Below, in pieces: positions 5,130 to 58,207 of a stretch of DNA of 64,000 nt; position 1 is the stretch's first letter, and each line of letters opens with the position of its first letter. The notes under the pieces are model-generated. The model was not told the DNA's origin. It saw only the letters and a list, made by a program, of their open reading frames with translations, and made no database searches. Source of the stretch: Phorcus lineatus (taxonomy: Eukaryota; Mollusca; Gastropoda; Trochida; Trochidae); NCBI GenBank assembly GCA_921293015.1, contig OV121090.1, positions 34,631,082 through 34,695,081 of the forward strand. The letters run 5' to 3'. The position numbers were made by a program, and so were the translations under genes.

Positions 5130-5700
5130 CCCGATTTGATTAAGAGAGAACCTCGGGGAAACCATGCAGGTTGTAAATTAGGGACAAATGTGATTCGGAA
5201 TCCGTAGAAGAGGATCTAATATTGATCGACGACACATAACTGAATTGTAATTCAAACCAACTGACATATTTTTAAGGTGGTATGTTATCCATTCTCTAAA
5301 AACAAGAAGCCGACCCATCCCAATAGTGCATGCATGTACGTTATGTAAAACCAAACTTTTTATAACGGTAACATGGCAACATTGTATTTTCTAGAATTAA
5401 TGCCCATTCAAAAAATTCTAAAATTCAATGTAAGGGGCTTTTTCATTGAACATCTTTTTTTTCGGAATTAGTTTCTTAGAGTACCATTGGACAGGTTTTC
5501 TCAGAAACTGTTACATTTTGATCTTTAAAATGTTTGGTTGTTTGTACACATGATGGTACTCGATAGCTTTAAAAGTTAATTCCTAAATATCGTATAATTT
5601 ACAATAGAATTGCCACCCTCGTATCTGTATTTGAACTTGGTGCTGATGTCTCTTAACATTGTTTAAAACTTGTTGTGGAAAGTATTTTGATTAAAAACAT
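5130..5700. repeat. Diverged duplicate of 42865-43560 (copy A1)
   Basis: Long runs match the segment at 42.87-43.56 kb in the same order and orientation: 'gaaaccatgcaggttgtaaatta', 'atattgatcgacgacacat' followed by 'aactgaattgtaat', 'gaagccgac', 'gatactcgat-like' and 'gtatctg.a.ttgaactt' blocks. Divergence is considerable, with indels, so this is an old intrachromosomal duplication or two copies of one large repeat. Confidence 0.7.
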
Positions 5701-21215: not shown

Positions 21216-21411
21216 CCCCCCGCCCCCCCTTTTTTTGTTTTTTTGTTTCTTTGTTTTTCTCCTCTCTTTTACTTTTCTATATTTGTTGAAAATAAGTTCC
21301 CATGTATTACTTTCTACTCTTATGAAATTGACATTCCTGCTACAACACCAGACCATGACCTCACAAGCATATTGATATTTATTCTGCCAAATATGAAATT
21401 TTATTTTTACA

Positions 21412-22329
21412 ATGAATAACATCAAAAAAGTAAAACTTATCTCAGCCAAGTGTAGAGGACTTGCAAACAAATCCAAAAGAAAAGAACTAATGCATTTATA
21501 TAAAAAAAAATCATACTCAATAATGTGCTTACAAGATATCCACATAGATGAATCTGCCTGTAACACTATGAGAAATGAATGGGGCTTGCAGTCTATAATT
21601 GCTCCTTTTAAATCTAATTCTAGAGGAGTAGCTATACTCTTTAACAACAACATTGACACAATAATACATAGAGCCATAATTAATGAAAAGGGAAACTATA
21701 TTATTGTGGACATTACAGTAGAGGATAAAAGAATGACACTGACAAATCGTTATGGTCCTAATAATGATGATTCCCAATTTTATGTTGAACTTTTTGATAA
21801 TATCTTAAAATTTGATAATGAATCATTAGTTATAGTACTAAGGAACCTTGTACTTGATCCCACTATTGATCTAGAGAATTACAAACATGTAAACAATCCC
21901 AAATCAAGAGAGACTGTTTTAGAATTTATTGAAACTTATAATCTTATTGACATATGGAGAAATTTAAATGATAAATCAAGAAAATATACCTGGTGGAAAA
22001 AGAATCCAAGACAACAAGCTAGACTTGACTTCTTTATTGTATCTGATGACATATTTGATATAACCTTGGACACTGATATTTTACCAGGATATAAAAGTGA
22101 TCACTCAACAATAATATTAACCTTTTCAAATAGCTTAAATCAAGATAGAGGAAACGGATATTGGAAATTTAACAACTCTTTACTACTAAACCCCGAATAT
22201 GGGAATTTAGTTAGAAATACATTAACGAGACTATTCAGGAATATGCTTCAGAAAAGATTGATGACTTTGAAAACCTTGAAGATATTGACCTTACAATATC
22301 TAATTCTTTATTCCTTGAAACTTTATTGA
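21412..22329 (+). pseudogene. LINE AP-endonuclease domain (broken)
   Basis: About 270 residues match the apurinic-type endonuclease that nicks the target for LINE integration. Landmarks in order: CRGL near residue 14, CLQDIH near 39 (usual QETH, so glutamate became aspartate), SRGVAILF near 70, YGPN near 113, RLDFFIVS near 205 and a terminal SDHS near 231. The block that should read G-D-F-N before 'LVLDP' reads V-L-R-N, so a catalytic Asp-Asn is lost. The frame ends by a frameshift shortly before 22329. Catalytic inactivity is inferred from these replacements. Confidence 0.85.
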
Positions 22330-22817
22330 TGAAAATCCGTGGAAAGACTATATATTTTGCATCTTACATAAAGAAATGTAAAACAAAACAAACAGAAGAA
22401 CTTGAAAAAAGAATTAAACATGTCGAAGATGATATTAGAAGAGACTTTCAAAATATAAATGAGGAATTGCTCTCTGAACTATCAAAACATAAAAAACAAT
22501 TAGAAGAAATAAAACAAGAAGAAATTAAAGGTATACAAATCCGAAATCGAATCCAATGGTATGAATAGGGAGAAAAACCATCCAAATATTTTCGTAACTT
22601 GGAAAATAGAAACTTTTCCAAAAAAATCTATTAATAAATTAATAACTAAGGAAAAAACTGAAATCACAGACAGTAAATCAATACTTAAAGAAGTTAACCA
22701 TTTTTATGAAAACCTATATGCTTCGCATGACAAAGATAGGGTAAAAGACTGTTTAAAAGATATTGAAACCCCAACTTTGCACAAAACTCTAAAAGAAAAT
22801 CTTGAAAAAAAATCAGT
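22330..22817 (+). pseudogene. LINE linker between endonuclease and RT (broken)
   Basis: Charged, lysine/glutamate-rich, probably coiled-coil sequence spread over two frames. A stop (TAG at 22566-22568) falls inside the family motif W-x-E-x-G-E-K-P-S-K-Y-F: the residues GEKPSKYF can be read directly after it. Frameshifts follow at A-runs near 22620 and near 22805, the latter linking to the RT frame. Confidence 0.8.
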
Positions 22818-24410
22818 ATGGAAGAAATCAGCAAAAATGTTTATAAAATGAAAAATAGCAAAAGCCCAGGAATTGATGGCTTTCCCATAGACTTCTTTAA
22901 GTTCTTTTGGAAAGATTTAAAAGTTTGGATTTATAAATTTGTTAATGATGTATCAAATAAGAATGACATGTCCCTAAGTATGAAGAGAGGTGTAATCACT
23001 TGCATACCAAAAGCTAATAAAGACAGAACATTACTAAAGAATTGGAGGCCTATCACACTACTTAATGCAGTTTATAAAATTATCAGCTCATGTATAGCAA
23101 ATAGATTGAAGACTACATTGGATGAATTAATTCACTCTAACCAAACCGGTTTTATACCGGGCATAACAATTAGTGAAAACACAAGACTTTTATATGACAT
23201 CATTTTTGAAGCCAAAAAACAAAACATTTCTGGTCTCTTAATCTTGATTGATTTTGAAAAAGCATTTGATTCTGTTTCTAAAGATTTCATTAATGAAGTT
23301 TTACAAAAATTTGACTTTGGTCCTGAAATGATTAAATGGATTAATATTTTGACTTATGACACTACCTCATGTGTTATTCAACATGGCCACTTATCTGAAT
23401 TTTTTCAGAATGAAAGGGGCTGTAGACAAGGTGACCCCTTGTCGCCCTATCTTTTTCTACTTGTTGCTGAGATTCTTGGTTGTATGATTAGAAATAATGA
23501 CAAAATCAAAGGTATTACTATTAATGGTACTGAATATAAGCTTGATCAATATGCGGATGACACAGAATTATTTCTTGATGGGACTGAAGACAGCTTGTAT
23601 GCTGCTATTGACACAATTAATACTTTCTACAAAATGTCTGGTTTGAAAATTAATTTGGATAAATCAAAAGCAATTTGGATTGGAGCAAAAGCTAAATCTA
23701 TTGATAAAATATGTAAAGATCTCAATATCGAGTGGACAACGGGTGAATTTAGTGTACTTGGTATTACATTTACCCCTGATCTTGATAACCTGTGGGTGAT
23801 AAACACCCGAAAGAGACTGGAAGAAATAAATAGACTTTTATCTTCATGGAGGAAAAGAAATGTAACTCTTATTGGTAAAATTACAGTGATAAAAACTTTA
23901 GCAATTTCTAAATTAGTTCATATCTTTAACTCTTTGCCTAACCCCCCTGTTGAATTTATTACAGACCTTGAGAAAATATTTTTTAAATTCATATGGAACG
24001 ATAAAAATGATAAAATTAAAAGAAATGTTCTGAAAAACAAATATGAGGATGGGGGTTTGAGAATGATTGACACAAACAGGTTCATAGATGCTTTGAAATT
24101 ATCCACCTTAAGGTTATATCTGAAAAAAACTGTTAAAGATAACCCCTGTCAAATACCTTTTGATGATATTTTTAATTTTGGAGCTAACTCTGATATATAT
24201 TTGAAGATAGAAAATCCTTTTTGGCAAGATGTATTCAAGGCTTGGAAGGTATTCCAAAAAAAACATTATGTTGATCCTAATACTTTAGATGATATTTTAC
24301 CCCAACCGCTTTGGTTTAATCACAATTTTAAAAATACATTTCATTTTGTAAAAGATTGGGCAAATAAAGGAATAATGACTATCCATGACATATGTGATAA
24401 AAACGGTTAA
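22818..24410 (+). pseudogene. LINE reverse transcriptase domain
   Basis: A 530-codon uninterrupted stretch with the hallmarks of non-LTR reverse transcriptase: KSPGIDGFP near residue 15, NWRPITLLN near 75, the first catalytic aspartate in IDFEKAFDSV near 142-151, GCRQGDPLSP near 200-209, the catalytic YADD near 245-248, and LKINLDKSKA plus LGITF (primer grip) beyond. Both catalytic motifs are intact, so this is the best preserved part. The frame ends at a TAA (24408-24410) that is a nonsense change, because homologous sequence continues in the same frame. Confidence 0.9.
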
Positions 24411-25170
24411 CTATCAATAGAATCTTTAAAAGACAAATACGGCATCAAAGGTACATTTCTGGACTATAATTACTTACTATATATATTGCCTAACGCATGG
24501 AAACATACCCTTACCCACTCTTCTATAGAAATGAATACCAGTTTTATAAATGTTACTGAATGCCAGTTGAATTTGATGAAAACATCCAAAGGCTCTAGAC
24601 TTTTCTATGACATACTTATCTCAACAGACAAATATCCTAACATCTGTAGCAAATGGCAACGTACATTTCCTGAAACTACATTTGATTGGAAAGACACATT
24701 TACAAGATATATGAAGGCAATAAAAGACACTAAATTACTAGATTTTCAATATAGATTTCTTCATGGTAAGAGAATTACTCAGAATGAAAAAGGTTGACAA
24801 TAGCTTATGTTGCTTTTGTAAGAATGTTGATGAGAGTGTTTGTCATGTATACTGGGAATGTGAGGAGACACAAATCTTTTGGAATAATCTACAAATTTGG
24901 CTTAATAATTCATTTCCAACTCCAGTAATATTTTCTAAACCTTTTATCTGGTTTGGTACCCAACACCAAAACAAATTAATTAATCACATCATTATTTCTG
25001 CTAAAAGATACATTTATCTTAGCAATATAAAAAATACATCACTAAACTTAAACATGTATTTAAAAACTTTGAAACAAATTTTGTGTGTGGAAAATTTTAT
25101 TGCAATCAAAAACAATAAAAATCATGATTTTCATAATAAATGGTATGTCCTCTGTCCAGCTCTTGAATGA
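24411..25170 (+). pseudogene. LINE ORF2 C-terminal part with zinc knuckle
   Basis: Translation continues in the RT frame past the stop to about 24797, then needs one frameshift near 24790 (after ITQNEK). The continuing frame carries the conserved CCFC-x8-H-x4-C knuckle (CCFCKNVDESVCHVYWEC), typical of the extreme C-terminus of L1/Tx1-type ORF2 proteins, and ends at 25168-25170. It is followed by a short 3' untranslated stretch and an A-rich tail. Confidence 0.85.
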
Positions 25171-27390: not shown

Positions 27391-27560
27391 CGATGTTCCG
27401 TGCAATCTGGGAATGATCACAATCTGCAGATTGTTCGCTCACAATCTGCAGATTGTTCGAACAATCTAGGAATTTTTTTCATTCCTAGATTGTTTAAACA
27501 ATCTGCAGATTGTGAGACCTGAACAATCTGGGAATGATCACAATCTGGGAATTTGATTGG
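27391..27560. repeat. Left palindromic terminal module
   Basis: Contains three copies of the 16-bp perfect palindrome ACAATCTGCAGATTGT, linked by ttcgaa, ctc and tttaa, and an ACAATCTAGGAAT...ATTCCTAGATTGT pair separated by tttttttc. It ends with acctgaacaatctgggaatg and atcacaatctgggaattt. The mirror image is at 31310-31470. Confidence 0.85.
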
Positions 27561-27654
27561 TTATAGTATAGTATGCATTATAACATGAGAATTGTCTAGT
27601 TTATTTAGTTTTTTCTTTGTGTATGCATCCAAATGATGGAGAATAGTTGTCAAG

Positions 27655-27950
27655 CCATAGATTGTGACAGGTTCATAGCTCGCCTATATATATAAAATGA
27701 CGGAGTATTGGGTTCGATTCCTGGATTGTGAAGGGCTTACAGATGGACATTATATCAAACTGAGAGGGAATATGGGTCAATTCTCAGATGGTGTAGGGCT
27801 CATAGCTCGCCTATCTATATGTCAAACTGAGGGAGTATATGGTTCGATTCCTAGATTGTGAAGGGCTCACAGCGCGTCTATATGTCAACCTGAGGGAGTA
27901 TAGGGGTCGATTCCTAGATTATGAAGGGCATTGCGCTTGTCTTTGTGATT
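27655..27950 (-). repeat. Satellite array, about 5 units, minus orientation
   Basis: Units of 63-67 bp read 'gggctcatagctcgcctat', 'atgtcaaactgagggagtat' and 'gttcgattcctagattgtg'. This is the reverse complement of the long array at 29685-31260. Confidence 0.85.
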
Positions 27951-28054
27951 TATTTAGCTAGTAGAGGATTCAATTCACATATTGTGAATATGTGGAGGTA
28001 GAAAACTAAATTTGTATATTGATTCTGCAATCTAGATTTTCATTAATCATAGTT

Positions 28055-29605: not shown

Positions 29606-29684
29606 ATAAGTGGACTTAGGTTATTTTCAATGTATAAACATGCTTCTATACCCCCGTATATATGACGTTAAGACGACCTAAGAG

Positions 29685-31260
29685 CCCTTCACAATCTGAG
29701 AATAGACTCTTATACCCTATCAGTTTAATAAATAACAAGCTATGAGCCATTCACAATCTCAGAATTCACTCCTATACACTCTCAGTTTAAATATAGATTA
29801 ACTGTGAGCCCTTCATAATCTGGGAATCAACCCCTATACCCCCTAAGTTTGACATATAGGCGAGTTGTGAGCTCTTCACAATCTGAGAATCGACCTCTAT
29901 ACTCCGTCAGTTTGATTTATAGGCGAGCTATGAGCCCTTCACAATCTGAGAATCGATCCTTATACTCCCTCAGATTGACATATAGGCGAGTTGTGTTCAC
30001 AATCTAGGAAGCGGCCCATATACTCCCAGAGTTTGACACGAGCTATGAGCCCTTCACAATCTGAGAATCGATCTCTATAATCCGTCAGTTTGATTTATAG
30101 GCGAGCTATGATCCCTTCACAATCTAGGAATCGATCCCTATACTCCGTCAGTTCGACAGATAGGCGAGTTGTGAGCCCTTCACAATCTGAGAATCGACCT
30201 CTATACTCCGTCAGTTTGACAGATAGGCGAGCTATGAGCCCTTTATAATCTAGGAATCGATCCCTATACTCCGTCAGTTTGACAGATAGGCGAGTTGTGA
30301 GCCCTTCACAATCTGAGAATCGACCCCTATACCCCCTCAGTTAGACTTTAAGGCGAGCGGTGAGCCCTTCACAATCTAGGAATCGGCCCCTATACTCCGT
30401 CAGTTTGACATATAGGCGAAAGGTGAGCCCTTCACAATCTGAGAATCGACTCCTATATACCCTCTCAGTTTAGATAAAGGTGAGCTATGAGCCCTTCACA
30501 ATCTAGGAGTCAACCCTTACATCCCCTAAGTTTGACATAAAGACGAGCTGAATGTCCTTCACAATCTGGGAATCGGCCCCTATACTGCGTCAGTTTGATT
30601 TATAGGCGAGCTGTGAGCCCTTTACAATCTAAGAATCGACTGCTATACCCTCTCAGTTTGACACATAGGCGAGTTGTGAGCTCTTTAAATCTAAGAATCG
30701 ACCTCTATACTCCGTCAGTTTGATTTATAGGCGAGCTTTGAGCCCTTCACAATCTGAGGAACGATCCCTATGCTCCATCAGTTTGACATTGGGCGAGTTG
30801 TGAGCCCTTCACAATCTAGGACTCGGCCCCTATGCTCCCTCAGTTTGATATAAAGCCGATCTCACAGCCCTTCACAATCTGAGAATCTACTGCTATACCC
30901 TCTCAGTTTAAATAAAGGTGAGCTGAGAGCCCTTCACAATCTTGGAATCGACCCCTATACCCCCTCAGTTTGATATAAAAACGAGCTATGAGCCCTTCAC
31001 AATCTGAGAATCGATCTCTATACTCCGCGGCCGTCCGTTTGACATATAGGCGAAATGTGAGCCCTTCACAATCTGAGAATCGACTGCTATACACTCTTAG
31101 TTTAAATAAAGGTGAGCTGTGAGCCCTTCACAATCTGGGAATTGACCCCTTAAGTCGCTCAGTTTGACATAAAGACGAGCTATGAGCCCTTCACAATCAT
31201 AACCACTCATTTTGAGAAAGAGACAAGCTGATTGCTCATCACAATCTAGGAATTGCTAAA
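29685..31260 (+). repeat. 63-bp satellite array, about 26 units
   Basis: Units read 'gagcccttcacaatctagg', 'aatcgacccctatactcc', 'ctcagtttgacatatagg' and 'cgagctgt'. Variation between units is moderate (ctgag/ctagg/ctggg; tatagg/taaagg). Reverse-complemented, each unit carries AGCTCGCCTAT and GGGTCGATTCC, resembling tRNA box A and box B about 35 nt apart. A 63-codon frame within it (30903-31094) is only repeat read-through. Confidence 0.9.
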
Positions 31261-34592: not shown

Positions 34593-34859
34593 GAACTACA
34601 AGCCAAAGAAAACTTAAAACAAGCCTCCTTTGCAGACTGGAATAAATATATTTTGATGTATGTTTCCTCTATTATGAAATATCATAGAGCCTGATTGGCT
34701 CCATAACATTATAAGATTACATATTAAAAGCATTCTCTAACAAGGTCTGGAAGTTAAATCGTTCGTGGTAACAGAAGAAATATTTCGCGACAAAATAGAC
34801 GAGTATGATTTGGATTTGTATAATGTTCTGCGTTTTTAAGTATCAGCTTGATGAAAGTT
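34593..34859 (+). repeat. Direct repeat, first copy
   Basis: Starts gaactacaagccaaagaaaa and ends agcttgatgaaagtt. Nearly identical to 35834-36123, which has about 20 extra bases (gaaaattctaggttgcatg) after 'cgttcgtggtaa'. Ends lack the TG...CA form of an LTR. Confidence 0.85.
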
Positions 34860-35833: not shown

Positions 35834-36123
35834 GAACTACAAGCCAAAGAAAACTAAAAACAAGCCTCCTTTGCAGACTGGAATAAATATATTTTGATGT
35901 ATGTTTCCTCTATTATGAAATATCATAGAGCCTGATTGGCTCCATAACATTATAAAATTACATATAAAAAGCATTCTCTAACAAGGTCTGGAAGTTAAAT
36001 CGTTCGTGGTAAGAAAATTCTAGGTTGCATGAGAACAGAAGAAATAATTCGCGACAAAATAGACGAGTATCATTTGGATTTGTATAACGTTCTGCGATTT
36101 TAAATATCAGCTTGATGAAAGTT
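35834..36123 (+). repeat. Direct repeat, second copy
   Basis: Second copy of the 34593-34859 unit, about 1.24 kb downstream in the same orientation. The sequence between the copies contains the MITE at 35217-35567. Confidence 0.85.
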
Positions 36124-36452
36124 AAATTCACTGGTTATCAAACTCATTCATTAATTTGATGCTTCATATCAAAGTAGATTTTATGTTATGTTATGTTATG
36201 ATGAAAATATGTTATATCAATTAACTCTTTTCATATTTGTTACGTATAGTCAACGCTATGAGCACACGCCATTAAACATCCTGCCCCACCCGCCCCCTTT
36301 CCCCGACTCTTTTTTTTTAGATTTGAGATGCCCCCTGATGACTTCGCAGGAACACAGTATAGAAAATGGCTCCCAGACGTTGGCTGTATGGTGCAAGTAA
36401 GCGCTCTGATTAGTAAGCTGGTCTAAATCAGAATGAATCTAAATATGTTTTT

Positions 36453-36555
36453 GCAATTGACCATTTTCCAGTTTCGCGAAACGAGTCGGTTTAGAGTGAC
36501 GTCCCTTTGAAAAGTCACGTGACCGCGGGCAAGCTGTCACAACAAACCGCTGTCA
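36453..36555 (+). repeat. Left terminal inverted repeat of the Harbinger element
   Basis: Outer 21 bp match the right end exactly. Further inward the ends share tttagagt, gaccgcgggca, and aacaaac.gctgtca in the same order with different spacing. The transposase ATG lies 64 bp beyond the inner limit. Confidence 0.85.
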
Positions 36556-36619
36556 AGTATATCGCGGCTTCGCGGGAAATATATAACTTTTTCTCCATTA
36601 TCAGACTTGAAGAAGAATT

Positions 36620-39148
36620 ATGCCTGCACACCATTGTTGTTACGGTGTGTGCACGTCTGATGCACGATATAAAACTCGAGTTGACATGCAAGATGTGTTT
36701 TTTATACCGTTTCCGAAACCGAAATCACAACTTGAGAAATGTCAACGGTGGGTGAGAGCTTGTGGCCGGAAAGATTTTGGGACCTCTGAAGTTACAAGAC
36801 ACACGTATATGTGCTCTAAACACTTTGTAGGTAAGTAGATAAGTAAAAGTCTCATCCTTCGTAATTATGAATCCGCGTGAATTTAATGAATTTTGTTGCG
36901 ACTTGTATCGAGTTGACTAGAAATCCAGTTCTTAATATTGCCCAGTATATCTCTGAAAAATGTTATTATTATTCATTATTAAAAAAATTATTTATGAAGA
37001 AACAAGATTAAAATCATTTTAAAAAACATAACTGTTTGATATGAATCAATTCTAATAAAATATAAATGCAACAGAGTGTTTTTGATGTTTATTCCAAATG
37101 TTTTTGTGCCTGATTATTATGTTTGACAATGTGAAGGTGGGAGAGGACCGACAATCGATCACCCTGACCCAGTAGCATACCATGACTCCAGATCAACACG
37201 CCCAACACCCAGAGTAAGACACAGTGATCATGGAGTCTGTCAGCCTTCTTCCAAGAAACAAAAGACAGAAGAACATGTGGAGGTGAAAGGTTGGTATTTA
37301 ATGCATGTTTGTTTAAATGTTTTCCACATGACATAATGTGAGAACAAGTCACTCTAAGAATTACATTTGAAAATTGGACACTTGTATTATTAAAAACAAA
37401 CTAATCCTTAGCTGTCATATGTGCTATAGTCAAAACATGAATCTTATTACCAAGTTAAACGCCAAATTTTTACCCCCAGATGCAAGCGGCATTGACGCAG
37501 TTGGACCGATGACTGCCCTATGTGATCACCCCTACTCCCAGCAGCAAAGAATCTACCGTGAAGTTGGGACACAGACCAATCTGAAATTCAGCGATTTCGA
37601 CTTCACTGATGATATCCTAACATCACCTTCACTGCTCCAAAGGGACATGACGATCAAAATCATCACAAGGGATGACAAGTCATGCAGATATTACACGGGT
37701 TGGTACAAAAGATAATACAAATGAAACCATAGTGATATGGTATATTATGAAAAGCATAATGTCACCAGATAGAAATAAATTTTGAATTATTTTCTTTTAT
37801 GCTATGAGATTAAAATGACCTCTTGCTTGTTGGTTAGCCATGGATACCAAAAAGACATTTCAAAGTCAAAATCATTTATAAATGAAGCCAATCTTTCAGT
37901 TTGCAACAAATATAAAATATATATATGTATATAATAAATATATATTCACAAGCTCATCAGGACCATGTCTCTAATTCTTTGGCCATATGTACTAAGGTTT
38001 GAACCTGGCCGTCTTGCTGTTGGTTTTCAACTGGCTGAAGCAGAAAGCAGAGCGTATGTCATACTGGAGGGGGCCTACAGAAACAAGGACCGAAGGTGTA
38101 AGTATAACAGCAGATTCAAACATTGAGTAATGATTTTAGATACAAATCTGAATGATTCAAAATTTATACATTTTGATTGACTTGTACTTAAGTGTTAGAA
38201 ACCTGATTAAATTTTATCCCTCTGCTAGAATGAATTCTTTTGTTATGAATAGAGTGAATACAGTACAGTACAGTGACGCTTCACCACTATTGAGATGATT
38301 TAATTAACACATTCCTCAATTTGTTACTTTACAAACCATATGACAATATTATATATTTATTCCTATTTAATTTTGTTCCCCAGAACTCATCAAGCAGAGG
38401 CCCATCAAGAGGACTCACTCTGTACCAAGAATATTTGATCACTCTCTTTCGACTCAGGCAAGGGAATGATACTGAGCAAATATCAGATATGTTTGGCGTT
38501 TCTGTGTCACATATTAGCAGGATATATAATTCATGGATTTCTCTAATGTATAGAGAGTTAAGCTTTTTGATAAAATGGCCTTCCTCTGACATTGTTAAAC
38601 AGAATCTACCTAAATGTTTCAAGTATTTCCCTAAAACTATTGCTATCATTGACTGTACTGAATTCTTTCTACAGAAACCTAGCATACCCTCAAGTCAGAG
38701 AATTACATGGTCCTCATACAAACATAGTAATACTTTGAAATGTTTAGTTGCATGTTCACCAAAGGGGACTTTTACATTTGTATCAGACTTGTGGTCAGGC
38801 AGTATCTCTGATAGAAAGGTTGTTCAAAAGTCTCGCTTTTTAGATTTAGTCTGTGAAGGTGATGACATTATGGCTGATAAAGGGTTCTTGATAAGAGATT
38901 TATTAGCAACTAGAAAGGCCACCTTAAACATTCCTCCCTTCTGTTATGGAAAACAACTTTCATCCCATGCAGTTACAAAAACAAGAAGGATTGCTACTGC
39001 AAGGATACATGTAGAGAGGGCTATTGGTACATTAAAAGAATTCAAGTTATTGCAAGGTGTCATACCTCTCAAAATGAAAGGCTCACTTAATCAATCTGTG
39101 TTTGTGGCAGCTTCACTTTGTAACTTAGACTCTGTACTAGTGAAATAA
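36620..39148 (+). CDS. THAP-domain Harbinger transposase (five exons)
   Basis: Cuts and joins transposon DNA in the nucleus. Exons I infer: 36620-36830, 37137-37289, 37480-37698, 37997-38097, 38384-39148; junctions are GT-AG (first donor gtaagt) and phases join to 482 codons. Residues 1-78: THAP zinc finger (C6/C7, C11, F-I-P-F-P near 30, W44, C65-x2-H68, then GGRGPTIDHPDP), which binds the terminal repeats. Residues 120-200 are linker with the SCRYYTG / MSYWRGPT motifs of this family. Residues 228-300: helix-turn-helix (SDMFGVSVSHISRIY). Catalytic DDE_Tnp_4 fold: D318 (IIDCTE), D371 (GSISDR) and D393 (ADKGF) as candidates for the second acid, E439 (HVERA). The start is the first ATG after the repeat and begins the THAP fold. 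Two donors (exons 2 and 3) are GTTGG, non-ideal. AATAAA near 39165 could serve polyadenylation. Confidence 0.85.
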
Positions 39149-39664
39149 ATACAATAATACAATAATAAAGCAATGTGTATAAAGATATAAATACAACAGA
39201 ATTTGTACATTACAAAGTCATCATCAGTAAAAAATCCATCTCTCAATTTTGAACAATACCTTAACTCCCTGTACTACAATAACTATTTATTTCTATGTCC
39301 GAAATTAGAACTAGAAATAAAAAAAGTATATTCACAAATATTTTTATATCTGACCAAATATGCACAAAATGAAAACTATGTTCAATGCCTAAAAGCTAGG
39401 AACTCTTCAGAAAATTGTCATTATTTTGTAAAATCATCATGTCTCATTTTAGGAAATAACATACGGTAGGTAACCTTAGAATGGCATGTCAGCCTCTTAT
39501 TGTATTTTAATGTATCATTGTATATTTATCCATGTACCTCTTATGCTGCAGTTTGCAGCCTGCGTTTAATAAAAGTTCAGTTCAGTCAATTTAAATAGGC
39601 AATCTATCCTGTGCAATGTAAATGAAAACTTTAATACATTTCAAGTACTGAATCCAGAGTTTAC
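39149..39664. other. Spacer between the convergent Harbinger genes
   Basis: Holds the 3' untranslated regions. Plus-strand AATAAA occurs near 39165 and again near 39570 (gtttaataaaagttcag). An 88-codon frame (39203-39469) has no recognisable features and is probably chance. Confidence 0.5.
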
Positions 39665-42237
39665 TCAATCTTCCTTTCTTTCATAGCACACAATCATTGG
39701 AAGCAACTTCACCAAGTACAATTGTTTAATATTTGATGTCATTTCTTCATAAAATTCTCCATCAAATGGAACTTGAACAACATGAACACCTCTTTTGGTG
39801 TAGATAACCAAATCACATGATTGAATATTACAAATTCCTAACTGACTCTGGATTTGGTAATAATAATCACTGCTCCTTTTTAACATCCATGTGTTATTTT
39901 TTAAATAACATCCTCTCTTTTGGGAGGCTACTTTGGGATCACAATCTCTCAGTGCCCATGGGCATTTAACTTCAATCAAACGTTTACCATGAGGGGGTTT
40001 GCATTTGCATGAAACAAAACCATCTACAGAAGAGCCTAAAAATGGGCAACATTTGTCTATTATTAAACCTTTCTCTTCAAGTTCTAAATGCCTGTGTTTT
40101 CTTTTTTCAATCTGAATGTACATTTTCTTGGCTTTAATCTCTTTTGCCCTTCCCCAGGCAAGTGAAAGAGGCACCCTGTCCTCATCAACATTAGGGCTAG
40201 CCATTAAATGAGTAGCTAACTTTGAACAATCAGTATTGGCATCATTTGCATAGGTCTCAGCTCGAGTGAAAACTCGCTTACAGTTAGAGCTGGTGACTAT
40301 ACCCTTCCTCATCTGACCCCATGTAGGGTTGTTAGACTGACCCCTAGTCTCCCTCTCTATGAATTCTATTTCCTTTTCTGTATAGTTAAGATCATTAAGT
40401 GCTTCTTCAGACAATGATTCACAATTAAGTGTGGAAGAGGTCACTTTACTAATAAAAGATAATGACACACAATCATCACTGATGACTTTCTTGGTATAAT
40501 TTTTGGGAAGATGATCTGTTGGAAGGAGCTCCAAGGCACAAGCATCAGGGTTGATCTGCAATATTAAATATTACATAGCTAGCGTAAATTATCAAAGATT
40601 TTTTTGTTGTTGATACAAGTATATTGATGTTGGTTTTTTTTCTCTGAGCCCACATGATCAGCACAGCATATTTTTATATATTTTTACAGCTGATATTAGT
40701 TATTCACATTAATAAGTGAAAGCTGATGGATCTTACTTGATGTAATGTAGATGCAAAATCAGCTAGTTCGTTCAGAGATGGTTCACATCTGTCATTTTCA
40801 TGTCTGGGGTCAAAGGCCTCCTGTCTGCCATCAGCACATGCAATATCTTGACCATAACTGGAAATAATAAATTTTTTTCAAATCATTGTTTTTAAATTAT
40901 TTTTTTTATTCTTGGATCTCATTCCAGTTGTATGTTTGGGTATCAAATGTATTTCAACTTCATTATGATAACTGTTACAATCAATCTTTAAAATTTGATC
41001 AATATTGATAAGTGACATAATATCTTGCTCATTATTTATATACATACAAATGCAAACACATTATAAGTTCATTGCTTCCAAAAAAATTTCAAGTAAAATA
41101 GCAAATCTTATTAAAAAGCAATTTATTTTCCATAGGTAATTTAAAACTTTGAGTTCAGAAAGGTGTAAAAAATTAAATTTACTTGATTTTTTGGATTTTG
41201 AGTTGCTTGATTGGAACTGGTTCATCGTGACTGCGAGCCTTTTTTGTCCATTGTGAAGGTCCATCAGTGACCCCTTTTTTCTCAAATGACTCTATGTCAT
41301 ATAGTACAGCACCAATGTGTCGACATGCACCATCAGCCCTGAAAATAGTTTAAACATTCAACAGCGTCAGAAAGTTTTCTTTTTCAAATATTTCTAGGGT
41401 TTATCTAGTTGAGTACAAGTACAATATGTTACACAAAATTGATAGATGAATTGAAATATTGTAAATAAATCTCAAATCACTTGAGTACTTTTTAAAAGGA
41501 AATTTTAGAGTTATTACTTGAAATAGAGAAATACGTACATTTGTCTGAAAATCGGGTTATAAACTTATTAGGAGTAAAAGATATAAGTTGTTTATGCGTA
41601 GTGAATTATTCAAATTTTATTTTCATTAAATGTATTTCCATTTTCTTCACATAAGCCATATTTACTTAACTCTGATGAAATTTTAGAATATTTCAAACAC
41701 TCACCCTCCAGGACATTGACAATAGGCTGTCTTTATTTCACACATCTTTACATCAACTGCAATCCAGAGGTTATAGCAGTCACGTTTGATACGTTGAGTG
41801 GGTTTAACTGCAGCTTTGAAAAATCCTATTGAATTGATGGACATAAACTGAAGATTTTCAATGTGTCCATCAGCAAACAGCCTGTAATCTTGAAACGATT
41901 TGTATGCTCTTAGTTTCCGCCTGTCGTAATCTGGTCTGTTAGTAATCAGATAATTGAAAACATCATACAGTCCAATTTCTGGTGATTCTGATAAATCATT
42001 TGAATATCCAGTCAAAAATAGAGGGTCAACATCAATTCCAAGGTCAGACAATATCGTTTTTCGGAGATTTGTGCACCCGTTTGTCGTCAGGTCAGGATTT
42101 GTCGGCAAATCCAAGTCGGAAACACATTTGCATAAGTCGACGAGTTGGGACCGATTGTATCCCGTAAATGTAACACCTCTTTCTTTTAAGTAATATTTGA
42201 GAGCCACAACATCGTAGGATTGAAAGGCAACTGCCAT
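39665..42237 (-). CDS. SAP-SWIM-YqaJ exonuclease-like protein (four exons)
   Basis: Predicted DNA-processing enzyme of the transposon. Exons I infer on the minus strand: 42237-41705, 41338-41183, 40857-40737, 40555-39665; all introns are GT-AG (donors gtgagt, gtaaat, gtaaga) and phases join without a break to 566 codons. Residues 8-40 look like a SAP DNA-binding helix pair (LKYYLKERGVTFTGYNRSQL). Residues 173-190 form a SWIM zinc site C-x-C...C-x-H split across the first intron (YCQCPGG / ADGACRHIGA). Residues 345-566 match the YqaJ / lambda-exonuclease-type nuclease: SxxR-like 'TSSNCKRV', WGRAKEIKAKKMY, catalytic D448 (GSSVDG), E465-V-K467 (IEVKCPW) and YYYQIQSQL. All key residues are present. 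Start: the only in-frame ATG before the SAP-like fold, about 60 bp inside the right repeat. The role in transposition is inference. Confidence 0.82.
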
Positions 42238-42296
42238 TATTAATTATTGCATTGCAAAGAACGCGAAGGAACTGATGTATGATTATCGCGGGAAAT

Positions 42297-42380
42297 CTGA
42301 CAGCAGTTTGTTTACATGTCACCATGCCCGCGGTCAAGGGCAGATAACTCTAAACGTATAACTGGAAAATGGTCAATTGC
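42297..42380 (-). repeat. Right terminal inverted repeat of the Harbinger element
   Basis: Read on the minus strand from 42380 it starts gcaattgaccattttccag and continues with tttagagt, gaccgcgggca and aacaaactgctgtca, mirroring the left end. It lies directly upstream of the nuclease start codon, so it probably contains that gene's promoter. Confidence 0.85.
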
Positions 42381-42864
42381 GAAGATTACTGGAAAAGCCT
42401 CAGTCATTAATATGTGCTTCGTTAAAATCAAAATTTTTTGCGGCTAGGGGAATACGCCGGGATTTTAGAAATCTATAAGTGTAGGTAGAGGTTAGAAGAG
42501 ATCTGATTTTAACAACCTCTCTGGGGAGAAAATATTGTAAATTTGGATAGTCTATTTTGCTGATTTGATTAAACCTTTCGGCGCAAATTCCACAGAGTAA
42601 CTGTCCAGAGCGTCCTGATATTTCATCTTATTAAGAATGATAAGAAATAAAAAAAAGTGAAATTCATAGTACAGACTAATTCACTTATGGAGATTCTGAA
42701 ACAAATATCTTATGTAACATACAATATCAAATTTTACAGGAATTTGTAGAATTCAGTATTTGCGAAATACAAGCCCGCATCAACATAAAGATTAGCAGAT
42801 CGCACTTATACACAATTTGAAAATTTATAATGTTTTACGCCTCCCTTGGACCAAGCCAATAATT
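42381..42864. other. Gene-less interval
   Basis: No gene or repeat seen. Confidence 0.4.
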
Positions 42865-43560
42865 CATCATCAAATCTCCTGACTTGGCTCAGACAGAACC
42901 TCAGGGAAACCATGCAGGTTGTAAATTAAGGGCAAATGTGATTTGGCATCCTTATAGGAGGATTTAATATTGATCGACGACACATAACTGAATTGTAATC
43001 GAAACCAAACTGACCTTCTCCTAAGGTGGTAAATAATCGACTCTCGGAAAATAAGAAAGCCGACAGGTCCCATTAGCGCATTTATTTCAGGTGTATTAAG
43101 GACTTCAAAAGTACCTTAAGGAATATGATAGCAACCCCCACCCCCCCCCCCCCCCCCCCCCCCACTATGGGTATACATAGCGGTCATTCCGTCCGTCCTT
43201 CTGTCCATCCGCCACTCTTTAGCTAGGTCACTATCTCAATAAAAAAACTTTGGTTTATTGAAACCCGTTAAACATGAAATATTCCTGCCCATTGACACAA
43301 TTCTAAAATTTGGGTTTTTTTGGGATCAATTTTCGGAACAAATACCATGTTTCGGATTTAGTTCAAGAAGGTAAAATTAGTCAGAATTTTCTCAGAAATG
43401 TTTACGTTAATGAACGAAACTTCATTCGTTGTTTGGGCTTTTTATGATACTCGATCGTGTTGAAAGTCGATTCCAAACTATCGTTTGAGTTATGGTCCTT
43501 GTATCTGCAATTGAACTTTGTGCTAATGGTGAATCTGATGCTCGGGAATGCCCTTTCGTT
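42865..43560. repeat. Diverged duplicate of 5130-5700 (copy A2)
   Basis: Same-order matches to 5.13-5.70 kb; compared with it this copy contains an insertion around the poly-C run (43135-43210), with a 'gtccgtccttctgtcc' motif also seen in related form near 870. Confidence 0.7.
43135..43163. repeat. Poly-C run
   Basis: 23 consecutive C at 43141-43163 preceded by ccccca. Length is likely to vary and may be imprecise from sequencing. Confidence 0.9.
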
Positions 43561-48062: not shown

Positions 48063-48731
48063 CATCCTGTCTCAGGGCAAGACGTATAGCTGACGCTCCA
48101 CTCTTCTTACCCTGAGTTTACACCCCAGCAAAAACTCCGCGCTGTCCTATTTCAGTACACATTTTCTAAAAATAATCAACCAATGACTGCGCTTGAAAGG
48201 CGAGTTGGCAATTTAATATGGCAGCGCCCGTCCCTTCAAATTCAAACAGAGTGAGTGAGTGAGTTTGGGATTAACGTGTTTTGAAAAATATTTAAGTTAT
48301 TAAACACGTGGATGAATAGCATCCAAAAGAGGATCGAAAGGATGAGGGAAAAGACAGAATGAAAGGCATTGTGAGAGATAGACAACAGGTTTTAGAACGA
48401 TTCAAATTTGGTCTGACTTCTACCCGACGACCTATCAAGCTTGGGTGTCCCTGCCAGGAGCATGTAAGCTCCGGCTGGCAAGCTCTATAGGTCTCTGGAC
48501 CACTCAAACCACCACGATAAGGTATTGAGTTAGGTGGTGGAAAATCAAACCGATCTCTTTAAACTGCATGTATGATTTATTGAAATAAACTAACCAGAAT
48601 CGCAAAATTGGACTCGGACATTATCACTATTTCGATTCCAGTTTCTTTATCTATGGACGTCGCCATTTAGCATAAGAGCGAAAGCCAACTCCTGTTCGAG
48701 AGGCTCTCTTTGGTTGGCTGAAATTTAACGG
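48063..48731 (-). mobile_element. Truncated copy of the 62380-63194 element
   Basis: Begins catcctgtctcagggcaaga, the terminal repeat of the 62.4-kb element, and runs in the opposite orientation through the shared retroelement tail (48250-48315), 'catgtaagctccggctggca', and 'agaggctctctttggttggc', then stops at about 48731 next to the giant inverted repeat. The other terminal repeat is absent, and is not found beyond 54.8 kb. Confidence 0.8.
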
Positions 48732-50106
48732 GGGGTGGGGAGATATCCGAAAGAAGGGATTTTGGTAAACATCCGGTTCGGTTATGACACTAATACCTGT
48801 GTGTCACATTACAATTAGTGACAAGAATGGGTACCAATTGTACATGAGCATGCTTGTAACACTACAAAGGTACACGCCGAGCGTTTGTTGTTTTAGTCAA
48901 TGATTATCATTCATATTTATCAAGGCATTGGCCCCTATCGGCAATATCACTGATAGGTGGAAGCAGACGTGATCAAACTCTAACCATAAATAACAACAAA
49001 TGTTTATGTTTATTGTTATTCCATGAAAGTTTTTTTGCCAAACTAAATATATTCAAAATAGTTTTTTTCATAAACAGAAAGATTATCATGTGAAATAACC
49101 AAAATGAAATCAAACATCATCTATTGATTATTTATGGGGAAATAGCAGGCTTTTTAATAGAATTTTTAAAAATTTAGAACTTAGTTTCTAAGATTTACAA
49201 AAGAAGATTATGGTTCAAACATATTTTATTCATTTCAAAAAAAGAAAATAGATTTGCAAGCAAGCTGGAAGCTTATATTAATGCCGCGCCTATAAAAATT
49301 ATATTTTGAAACCATCAAACATACAACACAAAGTTATATGTCAAACCAATACGATGTACAGTTGCAACACAATTCGGTTAAGATATTCAATATTGCAAAG
49401 GCACTTTCTTCATGCTAATATATAAATACAATATTTCAACTCATTTCCTATCAATACTACAAGAAGATTATAAACGGAGTTTGTTGACTTTAAGTTCATT
49501 AATAAACTTTGTTTACCTTCACAAGATATTTTGACACAAACCAGGGTACAGAGTTGAGAAAAAAAATTCTACTTAACCCGAGGTAACATATGATTTCGAT
49601 CAGTATGAAAAGGTTGTTTTTATATGTACAAGCGTCTATTTAGCTTGTTAGAAGCGTTGAATTGAGAGAATTTTTTTGTGTTGTTACCGCTTATAAGTTA
49701 ATCAACTGAGTCAAATAAGATGAGTAGGTGAGAGGGACGAATTACATTTCAGTGTAATATTGTTGTTTTACAGCTGAAAGTTTACTTAACTAATTGTTTT
49801 GTTATCTTAAATATGCTACTTAACATGTACCCCCGAAAAAAGGCATTAGGTTTGTAAATACACATCAACGAAGTTTTATTGATATACTAACAATTATCGA
49901 GTTATTTTGTGCTGACATACATATACTAATGAATTATCTTCAGAGGACTAAATTATTCATATTGTTATTGCTTATACAAATTTATTATAGAAACTGTCAT
50001 TTCTTATACAAATTTGATATTGAAACTGTCGTTGCTTATTGTATATATACATATTTCATTGTATGAGAATATGCAATATGTGTAATCATATAATGGTTAG
50101 TAAGTA

Positions 50107-50460
50107 TAATACTATGCATTAAACAGTATTTTATTTACATAAAACGTGTTACACAAAATTCAGAATATACATACAAAAAGGATTAGTGCAAACAGGCAGC
50201 AAATGCTTATATAAATTCTTGTCCTGAAACAAAAATAAAACGATTTAGATATCAAGTACATTGGTGGAAATATACATTTGCAATTATTCTCACTAAACTC
50301 AAACTTATATTAAGCTTTGTCTACCTTAGATTTGGTACAAAATTTAGGAAAGAGCTTTAAAAATCGGTTGGTATCATTTATGAAATGATAAACAGATATT
50401 ATTAGGAATTCGTTAACACTCTGTGACAAAGATTTGTCGCCGTTAAGATAGATTTTAGTA
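50107..50460 (-). pseudogene. LINE 3'-end relic in the left arm
   Basis: Minus-strand relic with a frame fragment (…SQSVNEFLIISVYHFINDT…) and a 3' untranslated region matching 29130-29460. The mirror copy in the right arm is split at 52380-52497 and 53745-53950 by the later insertion, so this relic was already in the arm when the inverted duplication formed. Confidence 0.75.
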
Positions 50461-51343
50461 TATTGATATGAGTTACTAGGGAATTATCAAGCCCTAAGTT
50501 GGCATTAGTGGAAAATATCTAAAATGTTTGGGAACCAGACTTTGATAATAGGAACTTTTAATTTTTTTACATTTGATACAATCAGCCAAGTCACCAAGTA
50601 GATAAACAAGATAATAATTTGTAAAAACAACATGGGCTTATGGTGTCTCCATATGTTGTTTTAGCCTAACACTACCTACGGTGGCAAATTGGTGCCCAAA
50701 CATTCGTCCTCTGTCATGCCAAGCTGTCACATTAACACATTCAGTGTATTCAGTGCTGGATTGTAACGATGGAGAGTACCTTAATTTCTGCTTATAGAAG
50801 GTTTTTGCATGGATTATTCTTTTCTCTGTATCAGGTACGTTTTTTAAATATATATTTTAAAAAAAGCAATTTATCACTAGTATTGTAAAACCTGGATCTG
50901 TATTAGAATAACTTCATATCTTTGATTGTTAATAGTTTATACCACCTTTTTGTAAAGAAACTAAGATACAAAGATGTCTCTGTGAAATGTGGAGCCGTTT
51001 GGCTTCTCTGTTTACAGCTGTTCGATCTACGCATGTATTGGTCGTTTGAAAAATGCTGAAAACTATTATCTAAATATAAATCTATATATTGATCTGATTT
51101 TGTTATGTCGCTTAACAAATGTGATTCAATCAGTAATCAAATGTGACTTTAAATAATTGTTTGAGTAGTGTTATCGTTCGTACTCGATAACAGATGAAAC
51201 CGAGTGAGAAAGTGTAGTAAATGGACATCAAATTAAGTTTTCTTCGTAGGTGTGAAAAGAATATAACAAAATTATCTAAAAACATGTTTTACTGACACAA
51301 TTCATTATAAAATATGAATATTATTAACATGTTATAGTATCCC

Positions 51344-51497
51344 ATAGTATATAGTAAGAAGGGGCGGATCCGCAGTTTGGATGAAATAAAAAATATATAT
51401 ATGTGTATCATCCCAACTGCGGATCCGCCCGATCTTAAGATGGGATGCGTCCCAACTTGGGATTCCAAGTTGGGACGTCCCATCTTGAGATGGGTCG
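51344..51497. repeat. Central loop made of two hairpins
   Basis: Hairpin 1: gggcggatccgcagtt at 51361 pairs with aactgcggatccgccc ending at 51430, around an AT-rich loop. Hairpin 2: atcttaagatgggatgcgtc followed by ccaacttggga pairs with tccaagttgggacgtcccat and cttgagat (about 51432-51493). GC-rich stems stand out against the AT-rich arms. Confidence 0.8.
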
Positions 51498-52484
51498 GGG
51501 GATACTAAAACATGTTAATAATATTCATATTTTATAATGAATTGTTTCAGTAAAACATGTTTTTACATAATGTTTTTATATTCTTTTCACATCTACGAAG
51601 AAAATTTGATTTGATGTTAATTTACTTCACTTTCTGATTCGGTTTCATCTGTTATCGAGTAAGAACGATTCAACACTACTCAAATAATTATTCAATGTCC
51701 CGTTTGATTACTGATTGAATCACATCAGATCAATATATAGATTTATATTTAGATAATAGTTTTCAGCATTTTTCAAACGACCAATACATGCGTAGATCGA
51801 ACAGCTGTTAACAGAGAGAAAACAAACGGCTCCACATTACACAGAGACGTATTTGTTTCTTAGTTTCTTTACAAAAAGGTGGTATAAACTTTTAACAAAC
51901 AAAGATATAAAGTTATTCTAATACAGAACCGAGTTTTACAACACTAGTGATAAATTGCTTTTTTAAAAATGTATATTTAAAAAACGTACCTGATACAAAG
52001 AAATTAATCCATGCAAAAACCTTCTATAAGCAGAAATTAAGGTACTCTCCATCGTTACAATCCAGCACTGAATACACTGAATGTGTTAATGTGACAGCTT
52101 GGCATGACAGAGGACGAATGATTGGGCACCAATTTGCCCACCGTAGGTAGTGTTAGGCTAAAACAACATATGGAGACACCATAAGCCCATGTTGTTTTAA
52201 CAAATTATTACCTTGTTTATCTACTTGGCGACATGGTTGATTGTATCAAATGTAAAAATAAATTAAAAGTTTACATTATCAAAGTCTGGTTCTCAAATAT
52301 TTTAGATATTTTCCACTAGTGCCAACTTAATCAGGGCTTGAATATTCCCTAGTAAATCATATCAATATACTTAAATCTATCTTAACGTTGACAAGTCTTT
52401 GTCACAGAGTGTTTACAAATTCCTAATAATATCTATTTATCATTTATAAATGATACCAAACGATTTTAAAGCTCTTTCCTAAAA

Positions 52485-53744
52485 TTTGTACCAAATGGTT
52501 TAAACATATTTTTATTCAAGAAACGAATCTGGTTTGGTAAACAAGCAAAGCTTTGCTTATATAAATACCGCACCAGTACAAAGATGATAAATATAGTACA
52601 CACGAACTAGACAAGAAACAAAAATCAGAACACCGTAGCATATCATTACATCAATTGAGTATCTACAAATTCAGACTAAGTAACATAACACATGCAGTTA
52701 TTTTCACAGGTAATGTTTCGTTTATAATTTACATTGTTTTTTCAAAACGCTTACTCTTACATATAAATTGGTGTAAGGATTTTATTATATTTAAATTTTC
52801 ATTTTTGTTCATAAGTGGTGTTCCATATAACACAGTTTGGAGGCTGTGGCCATTTATATAGAAGTAGGCATCATTTCTTGAATCCGAATAGAGCTTGCAT
52901 ATAAATAGATAATGGGTAACATTTTCATTGGGATATCCACAAGCGCATTCGGCATTACTTGAAATATGTCTATTGACCTTATCAGCGTTAAGATCACTGC
53001 ATCCGAGCTTGAGACGACTGTGTACAATTTGACAAAATCGACTGCCGTAATTAAGATCGAGGTAATTTTTTGATTCAGACTTTGTTAAAAGAGATTTGAA
53101 TTTGCTAATTGTTTCAGCATTGGTTATTTCGTCGGGTAACGAATTCCACAATTCAATGGTATCTGGAAGGAACGATTTTTCATATATTTTGGTTCTACAG
53201 GGTATAGTTTGTAACTTAGAACTGTTCCTTAGAAGATATTGACTATTGTCAGAGACAGGTTTAGGCACAAGGTCGCATAAGTAATCCGGGGAGAGATTGT
53301 TATACATTTTATAGAAATAAGTCAATTTGATATTATGCCTTCTTTCAGATAGTGGTTTAAACAGGGTTTCTCGGTATAATTTTTCATGGCTAGTACCACG
53401 AACTGCGCCACTTATAGTTCGAAGTGCATCTAAGTGTAACTGTTCGAGAAGATAAGATTGTTCTTGCGTACAATTATCCCAGATGTGACAACAGTAATCA
53501 AAGATCGGCGTCACAAAAGATTTGTACATAATTTCGAGCGTTTTTCTTGAGAGGCGATATTTAAAACTTCGGAGGCAGTTTATCATTGGGCTTACTTTAT
53601 TTACAATATCTTCAATATGACTATTCCATGAACAATTACTCTGAAGAATAACACCAAGGTGTTTATGGTTTTTAACTTCTTGTATCGGGGTTTGATCCAT
53701 ATACAAAGTCGGAATTATGTCACCTTTAAGTTTTGTACCAAATG
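52485..53744 (-). mobile_element. 5'-truncated LINE insertion with 13-bp target duplication
   Basis: TTTGTACCAAATG occurs at 52485-52497 and 53732-53744, flanking an insertion of 1,234 bp (52498-53731). Removing the insertion and one copy restores the mirror of the left arm near 50315-50345 (ggtacaaaatttaggaaag), a direct empty-site comparison. The 3' end is at 52498 (AATAAA-like 'gaataaaaat' on the minus strand at about 52518, no long poly-A); the 5' end stops just upstream of the coding fragment. Confidence 0.92.
52729..53706 (-). pseudogene. LINE reverse transcriptase C-terminal fragment (325 codons)
   Basis: Open reading frame without internal stops, but 5'-truncated: the catalytic fingers and palm (including the YxDD box) are missing. 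It begins at the primer-grip motif HLGVIL (residues 16-21), continues through the thumb region 'KTLEIMYKSFVTPIFDYCCHIW' type block (55-76), 'EQLHLDALRTISGA' (88-101) and 'SLPDEITNAETISKFK' (189-204), and ends with a C-x-C-x8-H-x4-C knuckle (C254, C256, H265, C270). This is the pattern of CR1/Jockey-like non-LTR elements of marine invertebrates. The upkeep of the frame implies a young insertion. Confidence 0.88.
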
Positions 53745-54770
53745 TAAGGTAGACAAAGCTTAGTATTAATTTGAGTTTAGTAAGAATAATTGCAAATGTA
53801 TATTTCCATCAATGTACTTGATATATATATTAGTCATTTTATGTTTGTTTCAGGAAAAGAATTTATATAGGCATTTGCTGCCAGTTTGTTCATCCTTTTT
53901 CCTCTTTGTATAATATTCTGAATTTTGTGTAACCCATGTTTTATGGAAATAAAATACTGTTTAAATCATAGTATTATACTTACTAAAAATTATATGGGGG
54001 GCATGTTAAGTAGCATATTTAATATAACAAAAAGATTAGTTAAGTAAACTTTCAGCTGTAAAACAACAATATTACACTTAAATGTAATTCTTCCCTCTCA
54101 CCTACTCATCTCATTTGACTTAGTTGATCACTTGATCAACTTATTAGCAGTAACAACACACAACAATTCTCTCAATTCAATGCTACTAACAAGCCTAGAT
54201 AGATGCTTGTACATATAAAAACAACCTTTTCATACTAATCGATATCATATGTTACCTCGGGTTAAGTAGGAAAAATATAATTTTACTCAACTCTGTACCT
54301 TGGTTTGTGTCAAAAAACCTTCTGAAGGTAAACGAAGTTTATTAATGAACTCAAAGTCAACAAACTCCGTTTATAATCTTCTTCTAGTATTGATAAGAAA
54401 TGAGTTGAAATATTGTATTTCTAATGATGTTAGATTTCATTTTGGTTACTTTACATGATAACCGTTCTGTTTATGATTTTTTTTTAATATATTCAATTTG
54501 GCCTAAAAACTGTCATCGAATAACAATACAATAACAATAAACATAAACATTTGATCACGTCGGCTTCAGTGATATTGCCGATAGGGGCCAATGCATTGAT
54601 AAATAAGAATGATTATCATTGACTAAAACAACAAACACTCGGCGTGTACCTTAGTGTTACAAGCGTGCTCATGTACAATTGGTACCCATTCTTGTCACTA
54701 ATTGGAAGGTGACACACAGGTATTAGTGTCATAACCGAACCGGATGTTTACCAAAATACCTTCTTTCGGA

Positions 54771-57199: not shown

Positions 57200-58207
57200 A
57201 CGACGAGGGGAAGTCAATAAACTCATAAAAATGGATATAAAACAGAAGCAGATTGTTATAATATTGAATTTATTTTCAACATAATATCCCTTGACCTCAA
57301 TGCACTTTGCCCTTTTGTCTTTGAGACTGCCAATGCCCTTGCGGTCGAAGTATTCTGATTTGCCACGCCTCGGTAGCTGCCTTGAGTTCATCATCATCGC
57401 CAAATCTTATACCACGCAAGTATGATTTCAAATTGCAAAATGGGGCCACATCTGGACTGTAGGGGGATGGTTAAGTTGTTCAAAGTCACATTTTGGAAGT
57501 GCAGCCTGTGCAATACGACTCTTTTTCACAGGAGCGAAAGAGCATAACTCCCGCAGTCAACTTATGCTTATGCTTCCACTGCAAGGCTTCTTGCTTGGGT
57601 AGAGGATCCCATTGACAATCCACATTTGGTCCCCTGTAATCAGACGGGCATGAAAGTTACTGGGATCAACATTGTAGATGACCAATAGCTCCGGACTGGA
57701 TTCAACTCTCTTGTGTCGATTTTGTGCATTTAAGTTTCGTGGCACCCATCTTGCAGACACTTTGGACGTGTGCAAGTGCTCATGATTATGGTGCAAACAC
57801 TTCCGTGAGAAATGACACCCTCTGAAGATTTCTCGTCCAACTTTATTCTATGATCGTACATGATTACGCCCTGGACCCATGTAACCATATCATCTGTAAT
57901 GGCTTCAAAAGACTTTCCTGACCGTGGGTCATCGTCCAAAGAGCTGCGACTCCGCTTAAACTCAGTTGACCAGTTTGCAACAGTAGAATATTGAGGGGCT
58001 AGATTCCCGCACACACTGGTCATACGTTCTTTCGTGAGAACATTGATAACCCCGCATGATCCTCAGTTTTATAACTTACCATGATTTCGCAAGTTAATGT
58101 CTGTAAACTGTCGTTAGATGGCCTATCTCAATAATGACATCAACGATGTTGTTTTCAGGGGTGCATCAAAACTCACTTCTATTAACTTATTGACCTCCCC
58201 TCGTTCT
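57200..58207 (-). mobile_element. Defective mariner element
   Basis: Inverted ends acgacgaggggaagtcaata (left) and tattgacctcccctcgttct (right) are flanked by TA at 57198-57199 and 58208-58209, as expected for Tc1/mariner. At 1,008 bp it is shorter than complete mariners (about 1.3 kb), and its transposase is broken. Confidence 0.9.
57250..58078 (-). pseudogene. Mariner transposase remnant
   Basis: Minus-strand fragments in order: YSTVANWSTEFKRSRSSLDD and DPRSGK (end of the N-terminal DNA-binding region), 'DHRIKLDE...GVISHGSV' helix-turn-helix, 'KVSARWVPRNLNAQNRHKRV', 'HARLITGDQMWI' containing the first catalytic aspartate, then after a deletion YSPD.AP-like and 'YFDRKGIGSLKDKRAKCIEV' of the C-terminus. 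The middle with the second catalytic aspartate is missing and several frameshifts are present, so it is inactive. Confidence 0.88.

Follow-up and report, generated by a model that had tools for sequence, protein, structure and literature searches.

A well-preserved ISL2EU-type transposon with transposase and YqaJ-type nuclease genes in the genome of Phorcus lineatus

The described transposons closest to the element reported here are those of the ISL2EU group, whose older name is IS4EU. They duplicate AT within A-AT-T upon insertion. Their transposase combines DDE, HTH, and THAP domains, and a further ORF encodes a YqaJ exonuclease domain (PMC4482050). According to the available portion of that account, Han et al. 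2015 surveyed 836 eukaryotic genomes and recorded 25 ISL2EU families, all in animals; both ORFs were present in most autonomous candidates and intact in 12 families. The terminal inverted repeats (TIRs) are 6–259 bp long and usually start with GG, which is a tendency and not a strict criterion, and autonomous elements have a mean length of about 4840 bp. The pairing of transposase and YqaJ gene was thus in print by 2015 at the latest, and the available text of a 2022 study of fish gives the same two-gene content for ISL2EU (PMC9179366). Elements termed 'PIF-ISL2EU' are mobile, with one gain and one loss reported in mutation-accumulation lines of Daphnia magna (PMC8594854). The sister group of ISL2EU is Spy (PMC11304231), which has one ORF encoding only the transposase, produces no duplication, and inserts into AAATTT (PMC4482050, PMC11304231).

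The window analysed here is the whole stretch of 64,000 nucleotides of Phorcus lineatus, and all positions refer to it. It contains a well-preserved transposon that we assign with near certainty to ISL2EU within the PHIS superfamily; neither the group nor the gene pairing is new. The nuclease gene beside the transposase gene is the normal second gene of ISL2EU, and because this pairing is a published hallmark of the group, the finding is an ordinary one.

Element ends and target site

An exact inverted repeat of 21 bp is present at 36453–36473 and 42360–42380, within 24-nt arms that are 96% complementary. When the window was shuffled 20 times with a first-order Markov model, no shuffle contained an exact inverted repeat of at least 18 bp at a spacing of 0.2–12 kb, and the repeat is therefore not due to chance. 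Since other, longer inverted repeats are present elsewhere in the window, within repeat-rich stretches, a long inverted repeat by itself is no proof of a transposon; the transposon reading here is carried by the duplication and the enclosed genes.

The similarity of the two ends extends, in a gapped local alignment, over 36450–36555 and 42298–42383. The left flank reads TTTTTGCA-AT-TGACC and the right flank GGTCA-AT-TGCGAAG, which gives the insertion context GCA-AT, element, AT-TGC, with CAATT and AATTG flanking the ends. From these letters, the element most likely spans 36458–42375 (5918 bp), and the target-site duplication is likely AT, within A-AT-T. If AT was duplicated, the element had entered GCAATTGC, a palindrome of 8 bp. 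On account of this symmetry, AATT or CAATTG as the duplication would likewise leave perfect repeats, and the three lengths look alike in a single copy. The sequence-only reading had proposed TIRs of 21 bp. The exact repeat stands, whereas the TIR length does not, as five of its bases (GCAAT) represent the palindromic target and the likely AT duplication; the TIR itself is exact over 16 bp, then imperfect to about 78–98 bp, and starts with TG under the AT reading. The parts of the element ends are as follows.

36456..36457, no strand: left copy of the likely target-site duplication AT (flanks, context GCA-AT)
36458..42375, no strand: whole element, very probably ISL2EU, 5918 bp (inverted repeats and likely AT duplication)
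36458..36473, + strand: left TIR, 16 bp exact (repeat search)
36474..36555, + strand: left subterminal part, gapped match to the right end (local alignment)
42298..42359, − strand: right subterminal part, gapped match to the left end (local alignment)
42360..42375, − strand: right TIR, 16 bp exact (repeat search)
42376..42377, no strand: right copy of the likely target-site duplication AT (flanks, context AT-TGC)

When the 64-kb window was searched for the 16-bp TIR core with up to 3 mismatches, the 2 matches both came from the element, and blastn revealed no second copy of the element in the window, only short low-scoring matches. Rfam gave no match in the window.

The window holds several other repeats. 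Immediately left of the element lies a direct repeat pair (34593–34859 and 35834–36123, 89% alike), and the stretch immediately to its right, 42853–43081, is 81% like 5104–5331. A likely non-LTR retrotransposon extends over several frames at 21397–25170 on the + strand, with a reverse transcriptase in 22806–24410 (RVT_1, 1.3e-34) and, below the cut-off, a weak match to zf-RVT in 24742–25170; the ORF at 21397–22329 had no Pfam match at E up to 0.01. A long direct-repeat array occupies 29646–31253 (73–79% alike among the matches listed), with inverted copies at 27392–27988. In addition, 48746–54770 is a large interrupted inverted repeat that may represent a foldback structure or inverted retroelement copies. 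It includes the pair 49421–49833 and 53996–54423 (89%), two more pairs (84% and 86%), and an exact 116-bp inverted repeat with outer bases 50701 and 52120. The inverted pair 48063–48727 and 62511–63194, about 0.68 kb and 89% identical, probably consists of two copies of one repeat. By eye, the 110-aa ORF at 57730–58062 on the − strand looks like the N-terminal portion of a mariner-like protein, and it was without a Pfam match at E up to 0.01.

Two convergent genes between the repeats

The repeats, the shuffles, and the gene models together confirm that one inverted-repeat pair surrounds two convergent multi-exon genes. Both start codons are inside the repeats, as the sequence-only reading had it, although 'just inside' understates their distances from the element ends, which are 162 bp for gene 1 and 138 bp for gene 2. 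The two genes converge on about 0.5 kb, and in this interval each strand has AATAAA or ATTAAA words.

Gene 1 (36620–39148, + strand) is predicted to encode a 482-aa THAP–HTH–DDE transposase in a five-exon model. Three Pfam domains were detected above their cut-offs, namely THAP (PF05485, residues 6–69, E 1.2e-8), HTH_Tnp_4 (PF13613, residues 239–288, E 2.1e-10), and DDE_Tnp_4 (PF13359, residues 317–475, E 8.3e-43), and all three fall in exons 1 and 5. D318, D371, and E439, chosen by eye, are the candidate catalytic residues. Exon 5 gave no match in the PDB by sequence. Both genes had been described as fully phased. For gene 2, 1 of the 8 splice combinations tried within set ranges is open to the stop. 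Of the 1944 combinations tried for gene 1, 36 are in frame and open, so its model is a likely one; other splices would fit as well, above all around exon 4. The 482-aa model was chosen for GTAAGT at its first and fourth donors, which it shares with one near-identical alternative, and secondly for its exon 4, which reads like that of THAP–DDE proteins. The predicted exons of gene 1 are listed below.

36620..36830, + strand: transposase exon 1, THAP domain, residues 6–69 (gene model, Pfam)
37137..37289, + strand: transposase exon 2 (gene model, splice combinations)
37480..37698, + strand: transposase exon 3 (gene model, splice combinations)
37997..38097, + strand: transposase exon 4, with the least certain splice sites and in-frame alternatives (gene model)
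38384..39148, + strand: transposase exon 5, HTH_Tnp_4 and DDE_Tnp_4, candidate D318/D371/E439 (gene model, Pfam)

Gene 2 (42237–39665, − strand) is predicted to encode a 566-aa protein in a four-exon model. Its earlier description as a lambda-exonuclease-type nuclease with SAP-like and SWIM zinc modules was accurate for the nuclease, as Pfam YqaJ (PF09588) matched residues 349–513 (E 1.7e-11, 45.0 bits, cut-off 22). Pfam Viral_alk_exo also matched, at residues 306–452 (E 3.1e-10, 39.8 bits, cut-off 20). The SWIM part is supported by an exact CxCx7CxH motif at residues 173–185, while the Pfam SWIM match at residues 168–192 (E 0.0099, 15.9 bits) lies under its cut-off of 19.6. The SAP part was not recovered: Pfam gave no SAP match at a maximum E of 10, a setting at which HMMER's filters remove most weak matches above about 0.1. 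The YqaJ-domain motifs GxxxE (E409), D448, E465-x-K467, and Q504 are kept, and GRAKE, SSVDGF, LIEVKCP, and YYYQIQSQ occur in the protein; these motifs and CxCx7CxH have roles in lambda-type exonucleases and SWIM fingers, respectively. The predicted exons of gene 2 are listed below.

39665..40555, − strand: nuclease exon 4, YqaJ domain (349–513), motifs E409, D448, E465-x-K467, and Q504 (gene model, Pfam)
40737..40857, − strand: nuclease exon 3 (gene model, splice combinations)
41183..41338, − strand: nuclease exon 2, second half of the SWIM motif (gene model, motif)
41705..42237, − strand: nuclease exon 1, first half of the SWIM motif CxCx7CxH, residues 173–185 (gene model, Pfam, motif)

A tblastn search of nuclease exon 4 against phages returned 2 records, both of Pseudoalteromonas phage H103 and in a gene annotated as an exonuclease, with 28.4% identity over 37% of the query (E 1e-4). 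The same exon matched 6 PDB sequences at E up to 5, none of them significantly (best 0.4). Five of the 6 bear the label ORF 37 or alkaline exonuclease and are herpesvirus proteins, and the other is an unrelated RNA-export adapter. Single-sequence AlphaFold models were unusable, with a mean pLDDT of 33.7 for nuclease exon 4 and 41.4 for nuclease exon 1. Back-translated patterns of nuclease exon 4 hit 7 stretches in viral contigs, and those of transposase exon 5 hit 3 stretches in viral contigs and 22 in genome contigs, none of which was confirmed; because these collections are viral and prokaryotic, the searches tell little about animals.

Assignment to ISL2EU

Comparing the element with ISL2EU, it becomes apparent that the two share a transposase with THAP, HTH, and DDE domains, a YqaJ second ORF, and the placement of two ORFs between TIRs whose length lies within 6–259 bp. 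They also share the AT duplication in A-AT-T, although its length here is read from one copy, which AATT and CAATTG fit as well. The element differs in that its TIR starts with TG under the AT reading instead of the usual GG, and in its length, which at 5918 bp exceeds the mean of about 4840 bp. The SWIM motif of gene 2 has no mention in the available part of the ISL2EU account of Han et al. (PMC4482050). We read the element as full-length and possibly autonomous.

The sequence-only reading was right that a single mobile element carries both transposase and nuclease, but it saw a PIF/Harbinger element with a nuclease gene as partner, and it raised the question of whether this pairing had been described. 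The likeness to PIF/Harbinger is real in the related DDE transposase and the two-gene layout: similar DDE transposases are reported for PIF/Harbinger, ISL2EU, and Spy (PMC4482050, partial text), and DDE_Tnp_4 and HTH_Tnp_4 are both present here. However, PIF/Harbinger has its own TWA duplication and a Myb/SANT partner. The flanks here are CAATT and AATTG, with TWA absent at both ends, and neither protein has a Pfam match to Myb/SANT (maximum E 10, within HMMER's filters). Moreover, a THAP domain is present, and the full set of features fits ISL2EU as described in the available text (PMC4482050). We therefore reject, as very improbable, a PIF/Harbinger element that captured a nuclease gene, and the pairing proves to be published for ISL2EU (PMC4482050, PMC9179366).

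Alternatively, the nuclease gene could be a host or endogenous viral gene adjoining a shorter transposon. The Viral_alk_exo match of gene 2 (3.1e-10) would suit this reading, and a clam genome paper assigns the expanded domains YqaJ and herpesvirus alkaline exonuclease to endogenous viral elements (PMC7826175). Both genes, however, lie inside one inverted-repeat pair with end similarity of about 78–98 bp and a shared duplication, and transposase plus YqaJ is the published content of ISL2EU (PMC4482050). This reading was likewise rejected, and we hold it to be highly unlikely.

Spy resembles the element in its palindromic target with an AT-rich centre, but differs in its single ORF, its lack of a duplication, and its AAA-TTT target; the element has two ORFs and the target centre GCAATTGC and does not fit Spy.

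Possible role of the nuclease and significance

Going by the ISL2EU family, the transposase would bind the element ends via its THAP and HTH parts, and its DDE site would excise the element and then insert it at A-AT-T with a 2-bp stagger. The function of the second ORF in ISL2EU was called unknown by Han 2015 (PMC4482050), and neither a SWIM motif nor a nuclease role was described for ISL2EU in the partial texts of the literature searched. The sister group Spy has only a transposase and is reported to be active (PMC4482050, PMC11304231). The core reaction of Spy thus does not need the nuclease, which by analogy looks like an add-on in ISL2EU.

The role that we favour, tentatively, is that the nuclease resects the broken donor site and steers its repair to homologous recombination. 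A lambda-type exonuclease would resect the donor break, leading to recombination with the sister copy; such repair would restore the element at the donor site and raise its copy number. In this scheme, the SWIM zinc module would serve to bind either DNA or the transposase.

Two other roles, each somewhat doubtful, rank closely behind. First, the nuclease could trim or process transposon ends or targets during transposition instead of acting in donor-site repair. Lambda-type exonucleases are better suited to long resection than to trimming 2 nt, and DDE transposases usually fix the stagger unaided, which argues against end processing. Accessory nucleases do exist elsewhere, lambda-exonuclease-like in KolobokE and DEDDh in KolobokD, although KolobokE belongs to another transposase superfamily and encodes its nuclease downstream of the transposase domain (PMC9587614). 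A difference in duplication length in Academ was tied by its authors to helicase versus nuclease (PMC10045372), and ISL2EU has 2-bp duplications whereas the nuclease-less Spy has none (PMC4482050, PMC11304231); these points, as given in the available texts, favour end processing. Second, the protein could possibly act mainly as a partner of the transposase in DNA binding or nuclear import. It would then be comparable to the Myb-like protein of Harbinger, which attaches to the transposon ends and together with which the transposase gains entry to the nucleus (PMC9179366). The SWIM motif of gene 2 is consistent with such a role, and the YqaJ protein is termed DNA-binding in Han 2015 (PMC4482050). 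However, all YqaJ motifs sought are kept, and these would be superfluous in a pure binder.

A broader reading, which we regard as less probable than any of these roles, would make the SWIM–YqaJ protein an active component of the ISL2EU transposition cycle, resecting donor or target ends, and so explain the 2-bp duplication or copy regain of ISL2EU relative to Spy, and would also make many mollusc 'viral alkaline exonuclease' expansions ISL2EU second genes.

Why one DDE transposon lineage should possess a phage-type exonuclease is a question for the ISL2EU group as a whole, not for this element alone. With its two intact frames and well-defined ends, a copy such as this would serve reasonably well as the basis of a transposition assay. 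In the present element, one predicted ISL2EU protein (39665–42237, − strand) matches both Pfam YqaJ and Viral_alk_exo. In the available text of a scallop paper, YqaJ genes were counted as recombinases (PMC10225492); many of the YqaJ or alkaline exonuclease genes in this and the clam paper may be ISL2EU second genes. The YqaJ and 'viral alkaline exonuclease' genes of invertebrate genomes can be genes of transposons and not of viruses.
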